From: Ipomoea triloba
Taxonomy: Eukaryota > Streptophyta > Magnoliopsida > Solanales > Convolvulaceae
NCBI RefSeq assembly: GCF_003576645.1
Contig: NC_044916.1
Location: forward strand, 26,946,564-27,010,563
Direction: 5' to 3'
Length of the DNA stretch: 64,000 nt
Below are positions 44,328 through 55,841 of this stretch, one piece after another; the first letter of the stretch is position 1, and every line of letters starts with the position of its first letter. The translations under genes and the position numbers were made by a program. A model generated the notes under the pieces. That model did not search any database. It was not told the origin of the DNA and was given only the letters and a program-made list of their open reading frames with translations.

Positions 44328-47300
44328 CTATCTTATGTTGTAAAGAAAGCGCCAAGAGGGGTAGCCAACTTTATCGCTTTCCAGCACAGATGCTAGATCA
44401 TCGGGAGGGTTGGTTTTTACATGCATCCCTCTAGGAAAATGAACAAATGACTTCGCTATATGATCTGCTGCTTTATTTGATTCTCTGGGGATTAGGCTCA
44501 TCCTCCATGAATTCAATGATCTTGTCTCTTGGTGGCAGGCTCTCATGATATTCTGCACAGTGTAGTTGGTTACTTGACCTTTTACCATTCCGTTGATAAC
44601 CTCGGTCGAGTCCCCTTCAAATATGACATTCCTGCAACCTAAGTGTTTTGCTAGTTGGATGCTTCTTAGGAGCGCCCATGCCTCTGCATGCAATGCGGAG
44701 CATGAACCTATTTTATTTATGAAGCCACCCAACCATTCTCCCATTGCATTCCTCGCGACTCCCCCGCAGCCTGCAGTATTTGATGCGAGATCTGTAGCTC
44801 CGTCGAAGTTGATTTTGATTACATCATCCTCTGGCTTCTCCCAGCTATGCAAGCTCCATGTCCCACTACTGGGAATTCCAAGTTGATCCTTTGATTTGGC
44901 GAAGGCTGCGCTAATCTCCTTGACTTGCATTTGGATCCACTGCACTTTCGACTGGAGAGATTGGATTGAGTTGTTGAACACAAACTCGTTTCTCCACTTC
45001 CAGATCCACCATATTGTTGTTGTGAATAGGGTGTTATCATACTGTGGTATATGGCTGGTTCCTTTGTTCGCAATTCCGCGGTCAAGCCAGGCTCGAAATG
45101 GCATATGCATGGACTCCCTATGCAGCACTGGTAGAACTTTTCTCCAAACTATCTCTGCCAGTGGGCAATCACGGAGAGCATGCTCAGTATCCTCCGTCTT
45201 ATCTACACAAAATAAGCATTTGTCGCATGTCGCGAACCCTCTCCTTGATCTCATGCTATTAGTCATGATCCTCTCATGACGGACTAACCATAGGAATGTT
45301 CTCATCCAGCTTGGGACTTTCAGTTTCCAGATTGCCCTCCATTTTGCAGCCTCAGTTGAAACGCCTGGGGTAACGGGATCTGAGCCTTTAATAATAACAC
45401 TATAGGCCGAGCTAACCGAGAACCTACCGGAGTCCTCATTTCTCCAGCCAGTTGTATCTTCTGCATCCATCTCATTATCTAGCATGACTGCTGCTAGTTT
45501 ATCCAATTGAGCTTCCGGGAGGAGATGAGACAATTTGTTCCAATCCCATCCAGAGCACTCGTCCCAGTAGTACGCTACTGTTTCTGACAATTCTGCCTGG
45601 GGGATCTGAGCTGTAGCATAGTTGCCCAAGGGGCTTTTTTCAAGCCAGCACTCATTCCAGAATTGAGTGTTTTGACCATTTCTGATAATCTTTGTCACCC
45701 CTCGTTGTAACTTAGGTACGGTATTCAGAATACCCTTCCAGAGATTTGACATATTGGTTTTGGGCCTCCAATCGGAGCAATCCGATGAGGAGATTGAGTA
45801 TTTATTCTTTAGAACCTGGATCCAAAGGTTATCTTCATTCTGCAGTATTCGCCATCCTAGTTTCATTAAAAAGGCTTCATTTATTGCTTCGAGCTTCCGG
45901 AGCCCCAATCCTCCGTTTTCCTTGCTCTTGGTGACAGTCTCCCAGCTGATAAGATGGCTTTTTCTTGACTCAGTTGAGCTTCCCCATACAAAGCTCCGTA
46001 TCAACTGTTCCATATTCCTAATCACCCCTTTGGGTAACATGGTGGTCTGCATGGTGTAATAAGGAATGGAGCTGAGAGCAGCTTGAGCAAGAGTGACTCT
46101 CCCGGCTAGTGACAAAGTTTTTGCCTTCCATCCTGCTAGTGTATTCTGAATCCTTTCAATAAGGCTTGCATACGTGTCCTTTTTCAGCCTTCCATGAATT
46201 GCAGGAATGCCTAGGTATTTGCCAAGATCCTCCACCTTCGATATTCCAGTTCGATTGACAATGCTCTGTTGTACATCTGTTTTCGTATTCTTAGAGAAGA
46301 ACAATGAGGACTTCTCCACACTGATTGATTGACCCAAATGATCGCAGAAAAGGTTCAGACAGCGCATCATCTCATCAGCTTGTTCGATTGTCGCCTCTCC
46401 AAACAACACCATATCATCTGCAAAAAACAGGTGAGAGAGGTTAGGGCCCTGCCTACTCAGCTTAATTCCTTTCCATTTTCTATTAGCAATTGAATCAATT
46501 ATAATGTGGCTGAGCCTTTCAATACATAACACAAAGAGTAAGGGTGAGATAGGGTCTCCCTGTCGTATTCCTCTTTTCGGGTGGAACCAGTTGGAGACCT
46601 GACCCTCCCAGTTTACAGCCATCCTTGATGTGGAAACGCAATTCATAATGTTACGTCTCCAGCTTTCATTAAATCCTATGTCCAGCAGTGTGTCATTGAT
46701 GAAGCTCCACGCTACTTTGTCATATGCCTTCTCGAGATCCACTTTCATAACTAGCCATCCCACAGCTGCTTTTCTTGTCCTCATCGAGTTGAGCACCTCC
46801 TGAAAGATGATGATATTATCGGCAATTTGTCTGCCCGGTATGAAGCTCGATTGGTGAGCTCCCACTAATTTTTTAGAGATTTCCTTTAGTCGAAGCACCA
46901 GAGTTTTTGTTAACAACTTGTAGGTGACATTGCATAGCCCGATTGGGCGAAGCTGTTTGACACTCTCTGGATTCAACACCTTAGGTAAGAGGGTGATAAT
47001 CGTATCATTGCATCCTTGTGGCAGCTCTCCGTCTGAAAAGAATCTAAGTCCAAACTCTATTAGGCTGCCCCCAGTTACGTCCCATGTTTTTTGGTAAAAT
47101 CCAGCGCTAAACCCATCCGGTCCTGGTGCTTTACACGGGTTCATTTCGAATAGGCCTTTTTTAATCTCCTCCGGTTGGATTGGACAGTTAACTTCCTCCC
47201 AGTCTTGTTCACATAAAGCTGGAAATCTCCCATGTGGTAAGGGTTGGTCGCTCCTGTTTTGCTCTTCAGAAAATAACCTTTCAAAATAGTTTTGGACATG

Positions 47301-48470
47301 GTCCAAGAGTAGTGACTTGTTCGAAATCCAAATTCCTTCCTCAGATCGTAGTGCTTTGATTTTAGTTCTGTTCTTTTTTACCGAAGTGGCCGTGTGGTAA
47401 AACTTTGTGTTACAATCCCCCGAGGTTATCCATTCTTCTCTTGACCTTTGATACCATAACAGTTCTTCTTGGAGCAGTGTTTCTTGTAGTTCATCCCTGA
47501 GTTTTCTCTCTAATCTAATCAACCCGTTAGTGACCTGCATGATGAGACTTCTCTGAACCCCTTTAATTCTGGAAAGGGTACGTTTCTTCTTCTGGAAAAT
47601 ATTCCCAACCGTGTTTTTGTTCCAGGCTTGTAAGGCTTCTGCAGTGGCTTGATGGTTTTCTTCGAGCCCTTTTCTCAAATCCCACGATCTCCTAATACAT
47701 TTAATGAAGTCTGCATGGACTGACCATGCCATGTTAAATCTAAAAGCTCTCCTTACTTCTGTAAACATGTGGGGATTACTGCGGATTAGTAGGGGCGCAT
47801 GATCAGAACTGACTATAGGGAGGTGCTCGACTTCAGCATCTGGGAATCTGGTTCTCCATTCCACATTGCTTAAGGCCCGGTCCAGTCTTGCACCTCTGAA
47901 AGAGTCAGTATTATTCCCTCTCATCCATGTAAATTCGGAACCTTTGAAACCTAGATCTATAAGGCCTTCACGATAGATCCACTGCCTGAACTCGGAGCAT
48001 CTTGACATATTAAAGCAGTCTGACTTGCTCACTTCTTCTCTACCTATGACAGAGTTAAAGTCCCCACAAGATAACCAGCATTGTTGCGAAACGAAGTTCG
48101 TAGAGGAGAGGTCCGAGAATAATTTTTTCCTTAATGAGCGATTAGGACTGGCATAGACTAACGATAGCAGCCATGGAGCGGAGTCACTCTCCTTTATCTG
48201 TAGGTTGACAAACTGGGGGTGCGTACTTATCACTTGTATCTTCAATGGGCGGCTCCAGAAAATCCAGATGCCCCCAGAGAACCCAACGGCCTCCACTCTG
48301 ATCCATTCCTCAAAGCCAAAGCTGATGCAAATGCGGTTAGCATGTTCCCCTGAAACCTTAGGCTCTAAAAAGCAAATCAGATCTGGTGTATGATCTTTGC
48401 AAAAACTCTTTAGGGTGCGTCTAAAAGAGCTAGAGGCTGCCCCTTGACAATTCCAAACTAAACAAATCAT
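44328..48470 (-). CDS. LINE-3 ORF2: endonuclease-reverse transcriptase-RNase H, intact, 1380 aa
   Basis: I chose the ATG at 48470 (MICLVWNCQG), 26 nt after the ORF1 stop, rather than the upstream GTG. The APE-type endonuclease spans about residues 1-230 (WNCQG, FLEPKV, CGDFNSV, SSDHAPL). The reverse transcriptase spans about 430-720 (APGPDGFSAGFYQ, LRPIGLCNVTYKLL, SSFIPGRQIADN, VDLEKAYDKVAW, RGIRQGDPISPLLF, catalytic FADD near residue 683). A zf-RVT Cys/His cluster lies at about 1075-1105 (CDKCLFCVDKTEDTEHALRDC). RNase H is at about 1215-1340 (FDGATD, HAEAWALL, EGDSTEV, NKAADHIAK). All key catalytic residues that I know for these domains are present. It copies LINE RNA at a nicked target. The length is normal for plant L1 ORF2. 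Confidence 0.93.
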   Translation of the reverse strand: MICLVWNCQGAASSSFRRTLKSFCKDHTPDLICFLEPKVSGEHANRICISFGFEEWIRVEAVGFSGGIWIFWSRPLKIQVISTHPQFVNLQIKESDSAPWLLSLVYASPNRSLRKKLFSDLSSTNFVSQQCWLSCGDFNSVIGREEVSKSDCFNMSRCSEFRQWIYREGLIDLGFKGSEFTWMRGNNTDSFRGARLDRALSNVEWRTRFPDAEVEHLPIVSSDHAPLLIRSNPHMFTEVRRAFRFNMAWSVHADFIKCIRRSWDLRKGLEENHQATAEALQAWNKNTVGNIFQKKKRTLSRIKGVQRSLIMQVTNGLIRLERKLRDELQETLLQEELLWYQRSREEWITSGDCNTKFYHTATSVKKNRTKIKALRSEEGIWISNKSLLLDHVQNYFERLFSEEQNRSDQPLPHGRFPALCEQDWEEVNCPIQPEEIKKGLFEMNPCKAPGPDGFSAGFYQKTWDVTGGSLIEFGLRFFSDGELPQGCNDTIITLLPKVLNPESVKQLRPIGLCNVTYKLLTKTLVLRLKEISKKLVGAHQSSFIPGRQIADNIIIFQEVLNSMRTRKAAVGWLVMKVDLEKAYDKVAWSFINDTLLDIGFNESWRRNIMNCVSTSRMAVNWEGQVSNWFHPKRGIRQGDPISPLLFVLCIERLSHIIIDSIANRKWKGIKLSRQGPNLSHLFFADDMVLFGEATIEQADEMMRCLNLFCDHLGQSISVEKSSLFFSKNTKTDVQQSIVNRTGISKVEDLGKYLGIPAIHGRLKKDTYASLIERIQNTLAGWKAKTLSLAGRVTLAQAALSSIPYYTMQTTMLPKGVIRNMEQLIRSFVWGSSTESRKSHLISWETVTKSKENGGLGLRKLEAINEAFLMKLGWRILQNEDNLWIQVLKNKYSISSSDCSDWRPKTNMSNLWKGILNTVPKLQRGVTKIIRNGQNTQFWNECWLEKSPLGNYATAQIPQAELSETVAYYWDECSGWDWNKLSHLLPEAQLDKLAAVMLDNEMDAEDTTGWRNEDSGRFSVSSAYSVIIKGSDPVTPGVSTEAAKWRAIWKLKVPSWMRTFLWLVRHERIMTNSMRSRRGFATCDKCLFCVDKTEDTEHALRDCPLAEIVWRKVLPVLHRESMHMPFRAWLDRGIANKGTSHIPQYDNTLFTTTIWWIWKWRNEFVFNNSIQSLQSKVQWIQMQVKEISAAFAKSKDQLGIPSSGTWSLHSWEKPEDDVIKINFDGATDLASNTAGCGGVARNAMGEWLGGFINKIGSCSALHAEAWALLRSIQLAKHLGCRNVIFEGDSTEVINGMVKGQVTNYTVQNIMRACHQETRSLNSWRMSLIPRESNKAADHIAKSFVHFPRGMHVKTNPPDDLASVLESDKVGYPSWRFLYNIR

Positions 48471-48496
48471 TCGAACAGAGTGACAAAGAACTGTGC

Positions 48497-50071
48497 TCAA
48501 GAGCACGGGCGATCGCCCATTACCGTATCATCCTGGGCCAGTTGCCCACTTTTGTCATACACAGGCTCATCGGAGGTCGTTTCTCTGTTAGTGAAGATTC
48601 TTGGGACATCCGAGGGGTTCTCCTTCATAGCAAAATCAAATTCCTCTAAATGTGACAATTCTGGGGCTTCCTCCTCTGGGTGGACAACAACAGTGCTTAC
48701 TATTTGTTTCCCGTGATTGTGACCCCTAACAACAGTATGCTCGGCTTCTGCTGCGGCCCTCCTCGGAGCCCCACCTCTCCCGCCTCGTCCTCTAGTGGCT
48801 CCACGTCCAGTTTGGTACTGCTCTGTTGGGGGGGGTCTGCGAGTATGCTCATGGTCCTTATTTGTTTTATTGATCTGATGCGTCCTGATTCTGGGCAAGT
48901 TCGGTGTCCTGCTCAGGGCTGCCGTTGGAGTATCTTTACCTCTCCTAATATTGTCTTCACCATCTTCGTTCATCCCTTCTAAGATAGCATATCTTGATTC
49001 TGAAATTACACCTCTCTGGTCTTGGTGTGCATTTGTCATTTGTGAGTTCCCGTTCCTTCTACGCTCTAGTGGACCATTTCCATTTCTGCGAGGGGTCTTT
49101 CTTTCTTTCTTGGCTACTAGCATCCATGCTCCGAAGTTTCCTTTGAATTCCCGACGTGGCGTTCTCTGCTTCATAGGCCTTGGTTGATTGTCTTGCATCG
49201 CCTGTTCTGTTCCCTGAGATTGCACCCCATCTGCTGGGATTTCATCACTGACAGTCTCAGTACCTTGTAAGCCACACTGCCCTTGCTTATGCCCGTAGAT
49301 ACCACAGTTAAAACAGACCATATGTATGCCTTCATACTCTATGGGTAGAACCTCATCTTCCAAAGTAAACTTTGACAGTAATGGCTTAGACAGATCAACT
49401 TCTAGACAAACTCTAGCAAACTTGCCAATTGAGACTAAACTGGTGGTGGTATCAACTCTCACCGGCCGCCCTATCTGTCTACCAATTTTTGTCAAAAAAT
49501 CCTCTTCAAAATACTCAATAGGTAATGCTGGGAATCTTGCCCATACCAACAATTTCTTAAGCTTGTTCTTGTAAGGGTGGAAGTTGGGTTCCCACTCTTG
49601 AACCGTCAGATAGTGCCCTAAAACGATCCATGGACCTTCAAATTTAGCGAAATCGTAATCCCTCATGGACTCGAACTTAGCCAAGAAATAATCTTGGTCT
49701 AGTGCAATTAGGTCGAACCCCGCTTCAGTTTTCCACATAGCTCGCAATCTTTGTAGAAGATAAGAGTAACTTACCTTTCTCCCGAGTACCCTGAGAATGA
49801 GAGACCTCCGCTAAGGTCTCCTGAGGCGTTCCTTCTCCGCTTTTGTTACCGGAATCCTGGGGCAATTTGGGTCCCCGATATCATCGTCCATGTTCTCCTC
49901 ATCAGACACTTCTTCGGGTTCCATTGACCCGATATCTTCTCTCGCACCCCATGCCGGGTTGGGCGTTTCCACCGGCGTCCTCCAATTGGCAGATTCTGGT
50001 GTTCTACGGCCTGCGGTGAAGGGCGTTCCCTGACCATCCACTTCAATCGGTGTTCTCATCGGAGATTCCAT
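48497..50071 (-). pseudogene. LINE-3 ORF1, open except for one TAG
   Basis: The first in-frame ATG is at 50071 (MESPMRTPIEVDGQG); open frame extends further 5' to about 50236 without an ATG. A TAG at 49813-49811 sits where LINE-2 has Trp in KSWRQSLI, so it is probably a TGG-to-TAG change. The frame continues past it unbroken to TGA at 48499-48497, about 524 codons in all. It contains the DUF4283-type block (FAKFEGPWIVLGHYLTVQEW), a CX2CX4HX4C knuckle (VCFNCGIYGHKQGQC) and a basic Gly/Arg-rich tail (GRGATRGRGGRGGAPRR). Expected role: binding LINE RNA. Confidence 0.85.
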
Positions 50072-51128: not shown

Positions 51129-51341
51129 GGCAATTTATATCGTGAACTTTGGTTAAATATACAGAATTTGACTTCATAATGCATAGAATTCATGTTCATA
51201 ATACAAACACATAAATACGGTATAATGAGCATGAATTAAACACTTAACATAATACACAGAATTCATGTTTATTATTTCGTGTTTATGTGTGTATTATAAA
51301 CATGGATTCTGTACTTTATGAAATTTACGATATAACGATTG
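51129..51341. mobile_element. Small Mutator-like MITE, member 1 of a local family
   Basis: The left end is GGCAATTTATATCGTG and the right end, inverted, is CAATCGTTATATCGT. The 9-bp duplication is agttgggta/agttgggtg (51120-51128, 51342-51350; one mismatch). The 213-bp interior repeats aattcatgtt and cacataa words. Confidence 0.75.
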
Positions 51342-51492
51342 AGTTGGGTGGCAGAGGTGTTGTCAACCCAACAAGGTGGTGCTGTGAGATTGTGTGGTCC
51401 TATGGCGATGGAGATATGTGGCAAAAGTAAGGGCAGTAAAGCCCCGCCGGCCGCCGTGTGCCCTGCGGCCCGTGGCCAAGAGTGATGAATGA

Positions 51493-52202
51493 GGTAAATT
51501 ATACTGTGCACCACGTACGTAAACGACGTCGTTTTGAGCATTGTAAACTAGTCGTCCGTTTTTTTTGGAAATCACGCTTCGCGGTTCGGCCGGTGTCTAT
51601 ATTTATGTTAATATTCTGTGTATTCCATGCAATCATTCTGTGTATTTTAGGCAACCGTTCTCTATATTCTAGGCAACCGTTCTGTGTATTCATGTTGGTA
51701 ACACATGTTGTGATGTGTTTGTGCATTCGAACGTTTAGGAGGATGAATTCTGTGTATTTTGTGTCAATATTTTGTGTATTCATGTTATTAACACAGGTTG
51801 TGATGTGTTTGTGCATTCGAATGTTAGTAGGATGAATTCTGTGTATTTTGTGTCAATATTCTGTGTATTCTGGGCAACCATTCTGTATATTCTAGGCAAA
51901 CGTTCTGTGTATTCTAGATAATGATTATGTGTATTATAGATAATGAATTCCTTGGAGTCATTTGCGTCCGCGTCCGCGTCCACTAACATCTGTGTATTTT
52001 GTGTCAATATTCTGTGTATTCTGGACAAACATTCTGTGTATTCTAGGCAAACATTCTGTGTATTCTAGATAATGATTATGTGTATTATAGATAATGAATT
52101 CCCTGGAGTCATTCGCGTCCGTGTCCACTAACATCGAAACGACGTCGTTTACGTTCGTGGTGCACATTGTTATGTGCACCGTGGTGCAGAGTATAACGAT
52201 TG
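51493..52202. mobile_element. Mutator-like MITE, member 2, with minisatellite interior
   Basis: The left end is GGTAAATTATACTGTGCACC and the right end, inverted, is CAATCGTTATACTCTGCACC. A perfect 9-bp GATGAATGA duplication flanks it (51484-51492, 52203-52211). The palindrome AAACGACGTCGTTT lies inside each end (51521-51534, 52137-52150). The interior is built from the word ttctgtgtattctaggcaa. About 51690-51785 repeats as 51786-51880, and a larger block near 51842-51990 repeats near 51990-52133. No coding capacity. Confidence 0.88.
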
Positions 52203-52247
52203 GATGAATGAGGAGTTGTTGCCTGTTGGCCCGAATGAGGTAGCAAT

Positions 52248-52591
52248 TGTAAATTATGGTCCACACAGCAGTGTGGAGTACGGTCCAAAAAATTATTGTG
52301 AATATTATGAATAAAAAAATATATATTATGTGTTAAAATAATGTACATTATGTTTTAAAATAATGTACAATACATGTTAGGATAATGTATATTTTGTGTT
52401 AAAATAATGTACATTACGTGTTAAAATAACAAAACATCTGAGAAAATATAATGTACATTATGTTTTAAAATAATGTACATTATGTGTTATTGTTGTAGTT
52501 TGGCACGTGATAAAATAAATAGCAAAACGACATCGTTTTTAGTTCGTGGTCCACACAGCTATGCGGACCACGATCCACGGAATAACCATTG
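52248..52591. mobile_element. Mutator-like MITE, member 3
   Basis: The left end is TGTAAATTATGGTCCACAC and the right end, inverted, is CAATGGTTATTCCGTGG with GGTCCGCATAGC farther in. The candidate 9-bp duplication ggtagcaat/ggcaacaac matches at only 6 positions. The interior is an array of about 24-bp units (taatgtacattatgtgttaa). A variant palindrome aaaacgacatcgtttt lies near 52524-52539. Confidence 0.6.
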
Positions 52592-52722
52592 GGCAACAAC
52601 ATGGTAGTGCGTAACTGTTTTAACCCTATATATTGTCCTATGGTGGAAAGGGTATGTGGTAGGAGTAGGGGTCGGTGGCGTGTACTAGGTGAGACATGTA
52701 GGGGCACGTGGCAGCTTGTAAT

Positions 52723-52903
52723 TAGAGGTGTGCAAACTTTGGTAAAAGTTAAATTACTCGACCGAATCGAAGAATTTTAGTTGATTATTTTTTAACTGAA
52801 ATACTTCGATTCGATTAATAGTTAAAGATTTTATAAAATTTCAATCAATGGTTAATTTGGTTAAAAAATATCGACTAACCAAATTAATTGATCGGTTAAC
52901 CAA

Positions 52904-52955
<52 letters not shown>

Positions 52956-53370
52956 TAACTAACTATAATATATTCTTACACTTTTTAAATTTTCTTTTAT
53001 ATTTGTAGTGTCGCTATTTTATTGTTTTTGTATATTTTCTTATAGATGTATTAGTATAGGTATTGATATAATTGGTAATGTTATTTTTTTATTTATAATT
53101 TTAAGGATTTAAAAATTTAGCTAAAAAAACTTTGGTTAATCAGTTAACTGACTGAGTAACCTCGAAAAAAATTTCGATTCTATTAATTTAGTAATAAAAA
53201 GTTCAATTCAATTAACGGTTAAAATGCCAAGCACCTTGTGCTCAAATGGCATGTAGTGGCCTCCCTCAAATGAAAGGTCATGAGTTCGAGCCTCAGTGGA
53301 GGAGAAAAAAATGATTTAAATTTTAAAAAATTTGACTAATTTGGTTCAATTAACTGAATGTATACCCCTA
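52723..53370. mobile_element. hAT-like MITE (TAGRGGTG termini)
   Basis: The left end is TAGAGGTGTGCA and the right end, inverted, is TAGGGGTATACA. The 8-bp duplication is cttgtaat/cttgtaac (52715-52722, 53371-53378; one mismatch). The interior has inverted segments rich in ggttaa and a TA microsatellite (about 52909-52950). Confidence 0.8.
53224..53315 (+). other. tRNA-like module inside the hAT-like MITE
   Basis: A-box-like ttgtgctcaaatggca (about 53238) is followed by B-box-like GAGTTCGAGCC (about 53283-53293). This resembles a SINE head. It is too short and irregular for a tRNA gene. Confidence 0.4.
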
Positions 53371-53435
53371 CTTGTAACTAGAACATGCGTGTGGATGTGG
53401 TATTTAAGAGCCTTATGAACACTACTTTACACTAA

Positions 53436-53952
53436 TGGGCTGTTTGGTTCACGGAATAGGTAGGGAATGGCATAGCATTCCCAGTAATAACCTATTCCGT
53501 TGTTTGGTTCGCATTTGTATTCCCAGGAACATTATTCCTGGGAATGAGCTATTCATCAGGGCCCCCCTGGTATTAACCTATTCCTAACCTCTCAGGAGTA
53601 TTTTATTATAATTACTTTTTTACCCTTTTTTAAATCTAAAATTTTTTACGCTAATTTTTACAGATTGAATTCATCACCCACGCAGATTGAATTCTTCTTT
53701 TACGCAACAACATATATATATTATTTATATAAAAAAAATTTGTAACTAAGAGCAATTAAGACTCCTTAAATGATGAAGCTTTTGGCTCTTTAAGGCATCA
53801 TCATCCTGTTGTTAATTTTAAAATAGAAGCAATGATTATCTTATATAGAGAAGCTCAAATGAGTTTCCCTTCTTGAGTTATCAATGTGGGATCAAAAATT
53901 CTCATTTGTGTGTTTTTTAAAAAATAATTATTTTATATATAATTTTGTTTTT

Positions 53953-54003
<51 letters not shown>

Positions 54004-54084
54004 CTTTTTTCTTATTATTGTTATTAATATTATTATAAGTTTTATTTTATTATTACATAATAATAATATTAATATTAATAATAA

Positions 54085-54144
<60 letters not shown>

Positions 54145-54363
54145 TACTACTACTACTACTACATAAGGGTATTTATGTCCTTTAAAACATATTTCATTTC
54201 TATTCCTTAAACCAACCAAACACTGTAATATAATTTCTAAAGTCTATTCCTTCCGCAAACCAAACAACAGAATACAATTTCTATTCTATTCCTTGCCTAT
54301 TCCATTCCTTACGGAATAGCATTCTTATTACCTCAAAATTCATTCCGTGAACCAAACGTGCTG
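53436..54363. mobile_element. PIF/Harbinger-like MITE with two ATT microsatellites
   Basis: The left end is TGGGCTGTTTGGTTCACGGA and the right end, inverted, is CAGCACGTTTGGTTCACGGA. TAA flanks both sides (53433-53435, 54364-54366). The interior holds (ATT)n at about 53955-54002 and 54085-54142, with (ACT)n to 54161. These account for the Ile-repeat open frames. Confidence 0.8.
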
Positions 54364-54366
54364 TAA

Positions 54367-54830
54367 TAGTGTGTTTGGAAAGCAGGAAAATAACTTCTGA
54401 AAAATGTTTTCTAGAAAATGAGTTCATTTTCAGTGTTTGAATGTACTCTGTAAAACTGTCTTTGGGTATTTGGTTCATTTTCCGGAAAATGAGTAGAAAA
54501 TGCATAATTACATATTTTTATTATTTTATTTAAAATATAAAAATATATAAACTAATAATATTTATTATAAATAAATTAAAAATAAAAATAAATTAAAAAA
54601 AATAAAAAAGAGGTCGCTGCCAGAGTCGACAGACTGGTTTCTGCCGGACTGAGAGAGGGACGGCTTGTCCCTCTTTGGCACGAAGCTATTTTCCATGTCC
54701 AGAAAAAGACCCTATTTTTCATGGTCAACGGAAATCATTTTTCGTTGACCATATTTTTCGGAGGTTGTCAAACACTAAAATCCCTAAAAATAATGTCTGA
54801 AAATCATTTTCTGAATAAACAAACACACCC
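54367..54830. mobile_element. Harbinger MITE (copy B), TAA duplication
   Basis: Same family as 25791-26327, with the subterminal words aaaatgagttcattttc and ttttccggaaaatga. The left end is degenerate (TAGTGTGTTTGGAAAGC) and the right end is the inverse of GGGTGTGTTTG. TAA lies at 54364-54366 and 54831-54833. Its left TAA is shared with the preceding element. Confidence 0.8.
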
Positions 54831-55049
54831 TAAGTTCAAACTACAAATAGAGGTCCTGCTCTTCTACATGCATCATCATATGGATTCACATCTTTTTATT
54901 TAGTCTTCTTTCTCAAACATTGTATCAAAATTGTCTAAGCCTTGTAATAGGCCCAATTGGGCCTAAACTTCTTATTTCAGAAGCTTGTCCTTTTATTTCT
55001 ATTTAAAATTTATATTTTGATCTTGCATTTAATTGTTCAAATGGAGGCA

Positions 55050-55590
55050 GGCAAATTATGCTGTGGACCCAGGTCCAAGGTGGACCTGGGTCCAAAACTA
55101 CGTTGTTTTTGTCTTCTTTTTTTTTTTTTTTTAACAAAAATTAGTAAACATATTGTTGAATATAGAGTTGTCAAAAAATGTGTGAATGTAGAGGTTTCAA
55201 AGTGTGAATGTAGATTTATGATTGTGTGAATGTAGAGTTGCCCAGAAATGTGTGAATGTGGAAGTTTCAAATTGTGAATATGGAGTATAGAAATCGTGAA
55301 TGTAGAGTTATGCATGTGTGAATCTGTAATAGAGTTAAGAAGTTCTAGCAACTTGTAGTCCTGTAATGTGTGAATGTGGAGTTCTCAAGTTGTGAATGTG
55401 GAGTATAGGACTTGTGAATATAGAGTTTTGAATGTGTAAATGCATAACAGTGGTAATATAGTTACTAAACATATAATCCTGTAATGTGTGAATGTGGAGT
55501 TTACAAATTGTGAATGTAGAGTATAGTGTATGTGAATGTAGACCCAGGTCCACCATGCAAGGTGGACATGGGTCCACGGCATAACAACCC
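55050..55590. mobile_element. Mutator-like MITE, member 4, with repeat interior
   Basis: The left end is GGCAAATTATGCTGTGGACC and the right end, inverted, is GGGTTGTTATGCCGTGGACC. A perfect 9-bp ATGGAGGCA duplication flanks it (55041-55049, 55591-55599). A subterminal palindrome (ggacccaggtcc, ggtggacctgggtcc) sits inside the ends. The interior is a run of tgtgaatgtagag/tgtgaatgtggag units. Confidence 0.88.
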
Positions 55591-55658
55591 ATGGAGGCAA
55601 TAACGGATCGATGAGGGAAATCACTACCTTTGAAACAATTGAGAATAGGAGAGATAAA

Positions 55659-55841
55659 GGCAAATTATTCTGTGAATTCGGGTTCAAAAAATACACAATT
55701 TACATATTCAATGTTTATAATTTATATACAGAATGCTCACAATTATATTGAATGTTCACAATTTAAATTATGGGCATTCAATATATAAATCGACAGGGAT
55801 CCACTTTGCATGGTCAATCCCGGTTCATGGTATAACGGGTG
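55659..55841. mobile_element. Mutator-like MITE, probable member 5
   Basis: The left end is GGCAAATTATTCTGTGAA and the right end, inverted, is CACCCGTTATACCATGAACC, aligning with the family core. The target duplication is unclear: ggagagata and gaggagata agree at 7 of 9 positions, but the left one is set back by 2 bp. Confidence 0.55.

Follow-up and report, generated by a model that had tools for sequence, protein, structure and literature searches.

Tandem arrays of a 22-bp unit occupy the non-coding parts of a group of Mutator-like transposable elements (MULEs) in Ipomoea triloba, and in the loci examined the sequence of the unit goes with the lineage of the transposase while its length stays constant. 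These arrays came to attention in a cluster of five small elements, E1 to E5, all in one orientation, that lie at 51129..55841 of a 64,000-nucleotide stretch of contig NC_044916.1 (positions 26,946,564 to 27,010,563; hereafter the window). E1 to E5 are non-autonomous MULEs, among which E2 belongs to subfamily A, E4 to subfamily G and E5 to subfamily T, and the unit cores of the A and G elements recur around and within transposase genes elsewhere in the genome.

Repeat units and transposase lineages

A search for the MULE transposase domain gave 150 scored hits out of 893 candidates, and eight of these loci were examined. They were picked by domain score and not by their ends, and not at random: three are representatives of repeated score groups, and the five taken later come from the same or apparently other score groups. 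Domains PF10551 and PF03101 (FAR1) are present in L103, L104 and L105, with a SWIM match above the cut-off in L103 and just below it in L105 (the second block of L104 lay outside the scan). By first-exon identity, which is 96-99% within and 65-74% between groups, the eight loci form three lineages: lineage 1 (L103 and L111), lineage 2 (L104, L110, L112 and L113) and lineage 3 (L105 and L109). One sub-threshold Ulp1 match (E 0.082) was seen in lineage 1, in a downstream open reading frame (ORF) on the opposite strand, and motifs similar to those of this ORF were recognised by eye in the other two lineages.

The expectation that a relative with a MULE transposase would carry matching ends held at the left end. 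Ends were compared in L103, L104 and L105, in which the left end matches at 12, 14 and 14 of 16 positions respectively and is then followed by a palindromic block; AAACGACGTCGTTT lies near the left end of L103 and L105, and L104 has a form of it that matches at 12 of 14 positions. Competing places for the left end score 13 in L103 and 14 in L104, both without the block, and the places followed by the block were chosen.

At all eight coding loci, 22-bp arrays flank the gene upstream and downstream and also lie in the probable intron that separates the two coding blocks. A lag of 22 is the best lag in 22 of the 24 non-coding intervals and the second best in the other two, as against none of eight first-exon and none of seven usable second-exon intervals; the interval limits are approximate, and the second-exon interval of L109, in which the marker peptide was not found, was not counted. 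The sequence of the unit differs between lineages. Allowing up to two mismatches, with the cores of lineages 2 and 3 defined on miniature inverted-repeat transposable elements (MITEs) and that of lineage 1 on L103 itself, matches to a locus's own core number 40 (L103) and 16 (L111) in lineage 1, 28-32 in lineage 2, and 33 (L105) and 25 (L109) in lineage 3, and matches to the cores of the other two lineages number 0-6 per locus. The small elements fall in with this pattern: MITE A has the lineage-2 core (16 matches) and MITE G the lineage-3 core (14 matches), and the other tested cores are absent from both. A count of shared 9-mers, made on one locus per lineage, gives the same pairing. Of nine comparisons between intervals within one element, eight give z 3.6 to 44 and the ninth 1.9, and all nine comparisons of the same interval across lineages give z -0.6 to 1.4. 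MITE A pairs with lineage 2 (z 5.8) and MITE G with lineage 3 (z 15.9), and the four remaining combinations score -1.4 to -0.6. As in the VANDAL elements of Arabidopsis, a family-specific motif thus lies in tandem repeats across the non-coding regions, weakly so in the lineage-1 intron. The arrays are nearly one-directional in lineages 1 and 3.

Because the unit sequence changes with the transposase lineage while the spacing stays, we suggest that the repeats may act as lineage-specific docking sites. On balance we lean towards the view that each 22-bp unit would be a binding site, set in phase with its neighbours, for a protein encoded by the element, and that unit and protein would co-evolve in the manner of VANDAL repeats and VANC proteins.

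A high-copy family with 9-bp target duplications

The left end of the elements is GGYAAATTATNCYGTG and the right end, read as its reverse complement, is approximately CAATCGTTATNCYGTG, the two differing in their outermost ~6 bases. Evidence that these are element ends comes from the paired full-length ends and then from a genome-wide count, and not from the bare core AAATTATNCYGTG, which with up to two mismatches occurs in the window at a frequency consistent with chance (25 occurrences versus 20.85 expected). By this route the common terminal core that the original prediction had recognised in the five elements is confirmed. No further strong end pair was found in the window by a weight-matrix scan trained on the E1-E5 ends themselves.

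Across 461,989,178 bases in 17 contigs, the left-end pattern with at most one mismatch gave 5,050 matches, versus 49 for a control in which the pattern was reversed. From 100 exact ends among the matches listed, all on contig 1, we examined 83 copies (80 plus 3 in the window), in 69 of which the right end was picked by motif alone. This is the search for copies bounded by 9-bp duplications that had been proposed when the cluster was first described, and a duplication matching at 8-9 of 9 positions was found in 44 of the 69, 33 of them perfect (the swapped-flank null fraction is 0.00007); the perfect duplication of E4 was missed by the motif-only choice of right end. One of the copies, L101, spans two copies and has its duplication and upstream flank in common with L100, and because the two represent a duplicated segment the independent validated insertions number 43 and not 44. 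The length of the duplication is taken to be 9 bp because matching drops directly outside nine positions: the next base outward matches in just 5 and 6 of the 33 perfect duplications, and in 46 copies that were selected for a match of 7 of 9 or better, the matching fraction is 0.91-1.00 within the nine positions and 0.20-0.30 immediately outside. A 9-bp duplication lies within the 8-10 bp of the MULE superfamily. Forty of the 44 validated copies are 156-789 bp long, and a short, non-coding, high-copy family with common ends fits the description of a MITE or non-autonomous element. The prediction of a Mutator-like family in which conserved ends go with palindromic blocks just inside them and with 9-bp duplications is supported, and the family is present in many copies.

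Among the matches listed, exact ends along contig 1 number 11-18 per 4 Mb at 0-12 Mb, 3-7 at 12-24 Mb, 13-14 at 24-32 Mb and 7 at 32-36 Mb. In the same set, five pairs of ends lie less than 5 kb apart versus 1.29 expected (p 0.01), two of the five being duplicated pairs. These are L053/L054 (contig 1, 7.69 Mb) and L100/L101 (30.69 Mb), whose members lie 1.5-1.8 kb apart with identical duplications and 200-bp upstream flanks; the MULE-domain listing also shows close pairs with equal scores. Such pairs are either recent tandem duplications or an assembly artefact. We note that the 9-bp duplication of L023 is GCAAATTAT, a sequence identical to positions 2-10 of the left end of the family itself, which suggests that this copy inserted into another copy of the family, and that L097 consists, in ~66 bp, of both ends with the palindromic block alone between them and no duplication seen. 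In viral and bacterial sequence collections the 20-base end pattern has no viral match and 14 bacterial ones, which are taken as chance because ~30 bacterial matches would be expected by our own estimate.

The five elements of the window

E1 (51129..51341, + strand) is a foldback-type non-autonomous MULE of 213 bp, flanked by AGTTGGGTA and AGTTGGGTG, which match at 8 of 9 positions; its interior (51154..51319) holds 22-bp-type repeats in both orientations, with a unit related to that of E2. E2 (51493..52202, +; 710 bp) has the perfect 9-bp duplication GATGAATGA and an array (51605..52088, +) of a 22-bp unit close to ATTCTGTGTATTCTAGGCAAAC, with the palindrome AAACGACGTCGTTT in its left arm (51521..51534) and again in its right arm (52137..52150). 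E3 (~52247..52591, +; ~345 bp) has a decayed left end, and a target duplication was not found around it; its array (52296..52492) has the 22-bp unit TAATGTACATTATGTGTTAAAA, and AAACGACATCGTTT lies in its right arm (52525..52538). E4 (55050..55590, +; 541 bp), bounded by the perfect 9-bp duplication ATGGAGGCA, carries a left palindromic block (GTGGACCCAGGTCC...GGACCTGGGTCCA, 55063..55094), a right palindromic block (55538..55577) and an array (55176..55547, +) whose 22-bp unit has the core GTGAATGTAGAG and is organised in a higher-order repeat of 118 bp. E5 (55659..55841, +; 183 bp) has inverted arms and a weak, offset duplication, and its 22-bp units (55693..55799) occur in both arms, those of the right arm being inverted. 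The two perfect duplications, the one with a single mismatch and the weak one of E5 are as had been noted when the cluster was first described.

Autocorrelation at lag 22 is strong in E2 (z 10.4), E3 (z 6.9) and E4 (z 6.8), where it is significant with all lags allowed. It is weak in E1 (z 2.5, p 0.007, rank 2) and E5 (z 2.7, p 0.008, rank 3); these are single-lag p values, and in both elements another lag scores best and lag 22 is not significant across all lags. In a circular profile 22 is the best period in four of the five elements, E1 giving a tie of 22 and 24. The description of the interiors as short tandem repeats is therefore borne out, strongly for three elements and weakly for two. 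That the interiors differ between members also stands for nine of the ten pairs, which are unrelated by direct alignment, and fails for E1 and E2, whose interiors are related in opposite orientation (alignment score 59 versus a null maximum of 34). A complete lack of homology among the five interiors is rejected for that pair. The unit profiles, taken jointly, align better than shuffles do (p 0.005 for all five and for E2-E5, 0.005-0.02 for E3-E5, 0.03-0.06 for E2-E4), and a common ancestral unit for E1-E5 is likely but not firm on this comparison of sequences. A conserved 12-bp block within the unit was found in E2 (p 0.002), E4 (p 0.017) and E5 (p 0.04), and not in E1 or E3.

The self-complementary blocks reported inside the ends are real. 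A ~38-bp block of overlapping palindromes adjoins the end core, and in nine hand-picked rows from several subfamilies two of these palindromes have standard pairs in 57 of 63 and 83 of 90 cells, versus fractions of 0.19-0.42 when slid; both sides show paired changes, e.g. C-G to G-C and A-T to C-G. A third palindrome is unsupported (30 of 45 pairs, and 0.64 when slid by one). Dimer binding and hairpin-templated correction would both give such pairing. Palindromic or modular terminal repeats with short tandem units are the anatomy of a foldback-type MULE, and these elements show it.

All five elements fold better than shuffles (E1 z -7.6, E3 -5.3, E4 -4.8, E2 -3.1 with 20 shuffles, E5 -2.6), and this raises the question of whether the element uses the repeats as binding sites at all, or whether they are silencing targets or sources of small RNA, or simply foldback arms that form structure. 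Tandem repeats can serve as sources of small interfering RNA and as targets of RNA-directed DNA methylation, as described in PMC10398659. Such a role does not, however, predict that the unit should follow the transposase lineage, and the arrays run in a single direction in E2 and E4 and almost entirely so in lineages 1 and 3; we regard this explanation as improbable.

Subfamilies and the constancy of the period

Subfamilies A, G and T, and a few others, are told apart by a variable base in ATTATNCTGTG. Among validated copies, 21 belong to subfamily A, of which 16 are 689-789 bp long, 19 to subfamily G, of which 16 are 493-674 bp long, and three to subfamily T, at 156-198 bp; T-type copies validate less often (3 of 16). 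The T elements have a foldback structure: the left arm carries units similar to CACAATTTACATACTGAATGTT, which recur in inverted orientation in the right arm. In consensus alignments of validated copies of 480-800 bp plus E4, mean identity to the consensus over aligned columns, arrays included, is 0.966 for 17 A copies and 0.961 for 18 G copies.

These alignments bear on the original prediction that each copy had independently grown its own satellite. That nine of the ten interior pairs in the window look unrelated would agree with it; they look so because the window copies come mostly from different subfamilies. For subfamilies A and G, in which 17 and 18 copies are ~96% identical to their consensus with the arrays included, independent growth is refuted, and as a general account we give it hardly any credence. 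Interiors that are homologous and non-repetitive between copies had been named as an outcome that would speak against the prediction, and what was found is homology between copies in interiors that are repetitive.

Lag 22 is the top-ranked lag in 42 of 47 elements and among the best three in all 47, or first in 40 of 45 when L101 and L050 are left out (L050 has an apparent expanded array whose lag-22 match of 0.87 is an assembly gap of N); L096 was too short to be counted. These counts are not independent because most of the elements belong to two subfamilies. The arrays still gain and lose whole units: 27 of 55 insertions or deletions of at least 12 bp within arrays are within 1 of a multiple of 22, versus 1 of 15 outside arrays, with those common to several copies counted each time. 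The T unit resembles the A unit and the G unit at 14 of 22 positions each (p 0.03-0.05), A and G and several other pairs of units show no similarity, and 14 of 22 between T and E3 is not significant; that T resembles both A and G, which are unlike each other, suggests descent from one T-like unit.

A part of this would also be expected from neutral satellite turnover, in which an ancestral non-coding 22-bp array keeps its register by slippage, gene conversion and unequal exchange, the unit drifts, and nothing reads it. Gain and loss of whole units, unit profiles that align jointly across all five elements in a way consistent with descent from one unit, and the resemblance of T to A and G all agree with such turnover. 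It accounts less readily for a unit that is common to separated intervals of one element when none is common to the homologous intervals of sister lineages, or for arrays that all eight loci keep in their non-coding intervals despite a protein difference of 26-35% between lineages; conversion between intervals could still account for both the common unit and the persistence of the arrays. We consider neutral turnover rather unlikely, while taking it seriously.

Several points weigh against phased binding sites that co-evolve with a transposase lineage. A common 22-bp ancestor followed by neutral concerted evolution also yields a constant period. The eight loci amount to three independent lineages, were drawn from multi-copy score groups and make up 8 of the 150 scored hits, and the null of the 9-mer test, with its one locus per lineage, keeps base composition only. 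In lineage 1 the core has no match in the intron, and a duplicated segment may be the source of the high upstream-downstream 9-mer score (194 shared, z 44). Among the eight loci there is no coding partner for the T-type or E3-type units. On the right side no end of a coding element was located within the 10-11 kb stretches examined at three loci, and over the first 45 bases L104 matches A at 37 and G at 30 positions, L105 at 36 and 40, and L103 at 34 and 32; because the ends match the MITE subfamilies partly, the coding loci are relatives and not proven parents. None of nine MULE-domain places on contig 1 lies, by eye, less than 10 kb from the 100 exact ends listed, and no VANC-like gene was recognised among the ORFs in the 10-11 kb stretches of three loci.

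A proposed mechanism

The conserved end core and the 9-bp duplication would reflect ordinary MULE integration by the encoded transposase. The 22-bp units would be bound by a protein that the element encodes, which may be the transposase or else an anti-silencing factor of VANC type and is predicted to bind as a multimer with a fixed pitch of about two helical turns. Unit and protein would change together, so that each lineage may address only its own coding and non-coding copies, and unequal exchange and slippage would keep the arrays homogeneous and add or remove whole units. Small elements such as those in the window would then be mobilised or de-silenced in trans. A VANC-like or general coating role is favoured over end recognition alone because the arrays also fill the probable intron and the gene flanks. 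There are precedents for such binding: VANC21 is described as occupying introns and intergenic and terminal non-coding regions of VANDAL21 via a short tandem-repeat motif, and VANDAL tandem repeats as evolving together and differing between related families (PMC5735166), and a domain of the Galileo transposase is described as binding tandem repeats of the long terminal repeats (PMC3688188).

A more specific form of this proposal, which we offer tentatively, is a fixed-pitch address system in which the 22-bp ruler would be invariant throughout the non-coding DNA, the intron of the transposase gene included, and the letters of the unit would be swapped wholesale between lineages, each version being read by a multimer of its own lineage. 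If true, this would be a VANDAL-like system evolved in another branch of the MULEs, with spacing as the invariant, in which all copies of one lineage, coding and non-coding, would be recognised or relieved of silencing as a group and would be kept free of cross-talk with sister lineages.

Other features of the window and of the coding loci

The cluster lies in a dense nest of small insertions that spans 51-56 kb of the window. An apparent other insertion at 52725-53376 (TAGAGGTGTGCAAAC ... CCCCTA, with flanks CTTGTAAT and CTTGTAAC) resembles a non-autonomous element of hAT type. At 53437-54363 lies an element whose ends (CTGTTTGGTTCACGGAATAG ... CCGTGAACCAAAC) are inverted and whose interior holds a large TTA/TAT microsatellite, and another element-like stretch with inverted ends TGTGTTTGG ... 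CAAACACA occupies 54370-54830. Just upstream of the cluster, at 44328-49810, are long LINE-like (long interspersed nuclear element) frames (44328-48527 by eye), of which 48497-49810 shows DUF4283 and a zinc knuckle below the Pfam cut-off. The window also holds reverse-transcriptase ORFs and an FPA-like gene with SPOC and RRM domains, whose nearest relative in our search is a Cuscuta europaea protein (67%). No MULE transposase was found by Pfam in the 10 ORFs scanned of the window's 45 of at least 110 amino acids, and Rfam gave no match at gathering score. Beyond L104, an ORF with a Transposase-associated domain (PF13963, E 6.8e-13) lies at 2448-2999 of L107, and this stretch therefore also holds other transposons.

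Relation to known elements and significance

VANDAL elements are not known to have terminal inverted repeats, whereas inverted ends and palindromic blocks are present here. Because of these inverted ends, and because no VANC gene was seen in the stretches of three loci, we do not file the group as VANDAL; its anatomy is that of a foldback-type MULE group. The likeness to the VANDAL/VANC system of Arabidopsis lies in motif-bearing tandem repeats within introns and intergenic and terminal non-coding regions, in a motif that differs between related families, and in repeat copies that are gained and lost and diverge together (PMC5735166). Unlike the VANDALs, the I. triloba group combines palindromic inverted ends with a FAR1-domain transposase, keeps a 22-bp pitch in the three lineages examined, has small non-autonomous elements with matching arrays, and shows no VANC gene in the stretches of three loci; the sections of the VANC paper drawn on here give no fixed period (PMC5735166).

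Anatomical parallels come from other Mutator-like families. For the Tm1 Mutator/Foldback elements of root-knot nematodes, duplications of 9 bp are described together with terminal repeats in which short tandem units are present in varying number; the terminal motifs, short and asymmetric, lie outside the inverted repeat, and the family has both MITE-like and coding members (PMC3169594). Their unit is given as 13-15 bp with one consensus, in contrast to the 22-bp, lineage-specific units seen here, which are found in the flanks of the transposase gene and in its probable intron as well. The Aedes aegypti elements Muta1 and Muta5 likewise have 8-9 bp duplications, tandem repeats in subterminal position and a short motif at the terminus, which in Muta1 is a palindrome, and their non-autonomous derivatives vary in repeat number, but their units are 12 and 15 bp and are described as part of the terminal repeats (PMC5225508). 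Among plants, MuTAnT of Medicago and FARE of Arabidopsis are foldback MULEs whose terminal repeats are modular or palindromic (PMC4486113, with FARE as cited there), although MuTAnT targets TA microsatellites and the passages of that source drawn on mention no 22-bp arrays.

Outside the MULEs, Galileo, a Drosophila element of the P superfamily, is described as having several binding sites for its transposase domain in the tandem repeats of its long terminal repeats; it differs in superfamily and in that its repeats are described in terminal repeats (PMC3688188). The SIRC repeats of Arabidopsis MITEs are short direct repeats of 10-29 bp within MITEs, for which a minisatellite origin is discussed, but they have unrelated spacers between them, and the portions of the source consulted give no fixed period or transposase pairing (PMC10342631). 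A literature search (subscription papers lay outside its scope) gave no description of this MULE family among the matches listed, and, as far as those listings show, one pitch with lineage-specific units running through the non-coding intervals, together with matching small elements, is new.

Sequence-specific anti-silencing through fast-changing tandem motifs has been described for the Arabidopsis VANDALs. Here one genome offers three sister transposase lineages, a clean pairing of unit and lineage in the loci examined, a constant spacing and thousands of end matches, and the system is suited to asking which protein reads the repeats, what spacing contributes as against sequence, and how specificity switches. 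It also illustrates that arrays which, in a genome window, resemble copy-specific minisatellites can be markers of transposon lineage.

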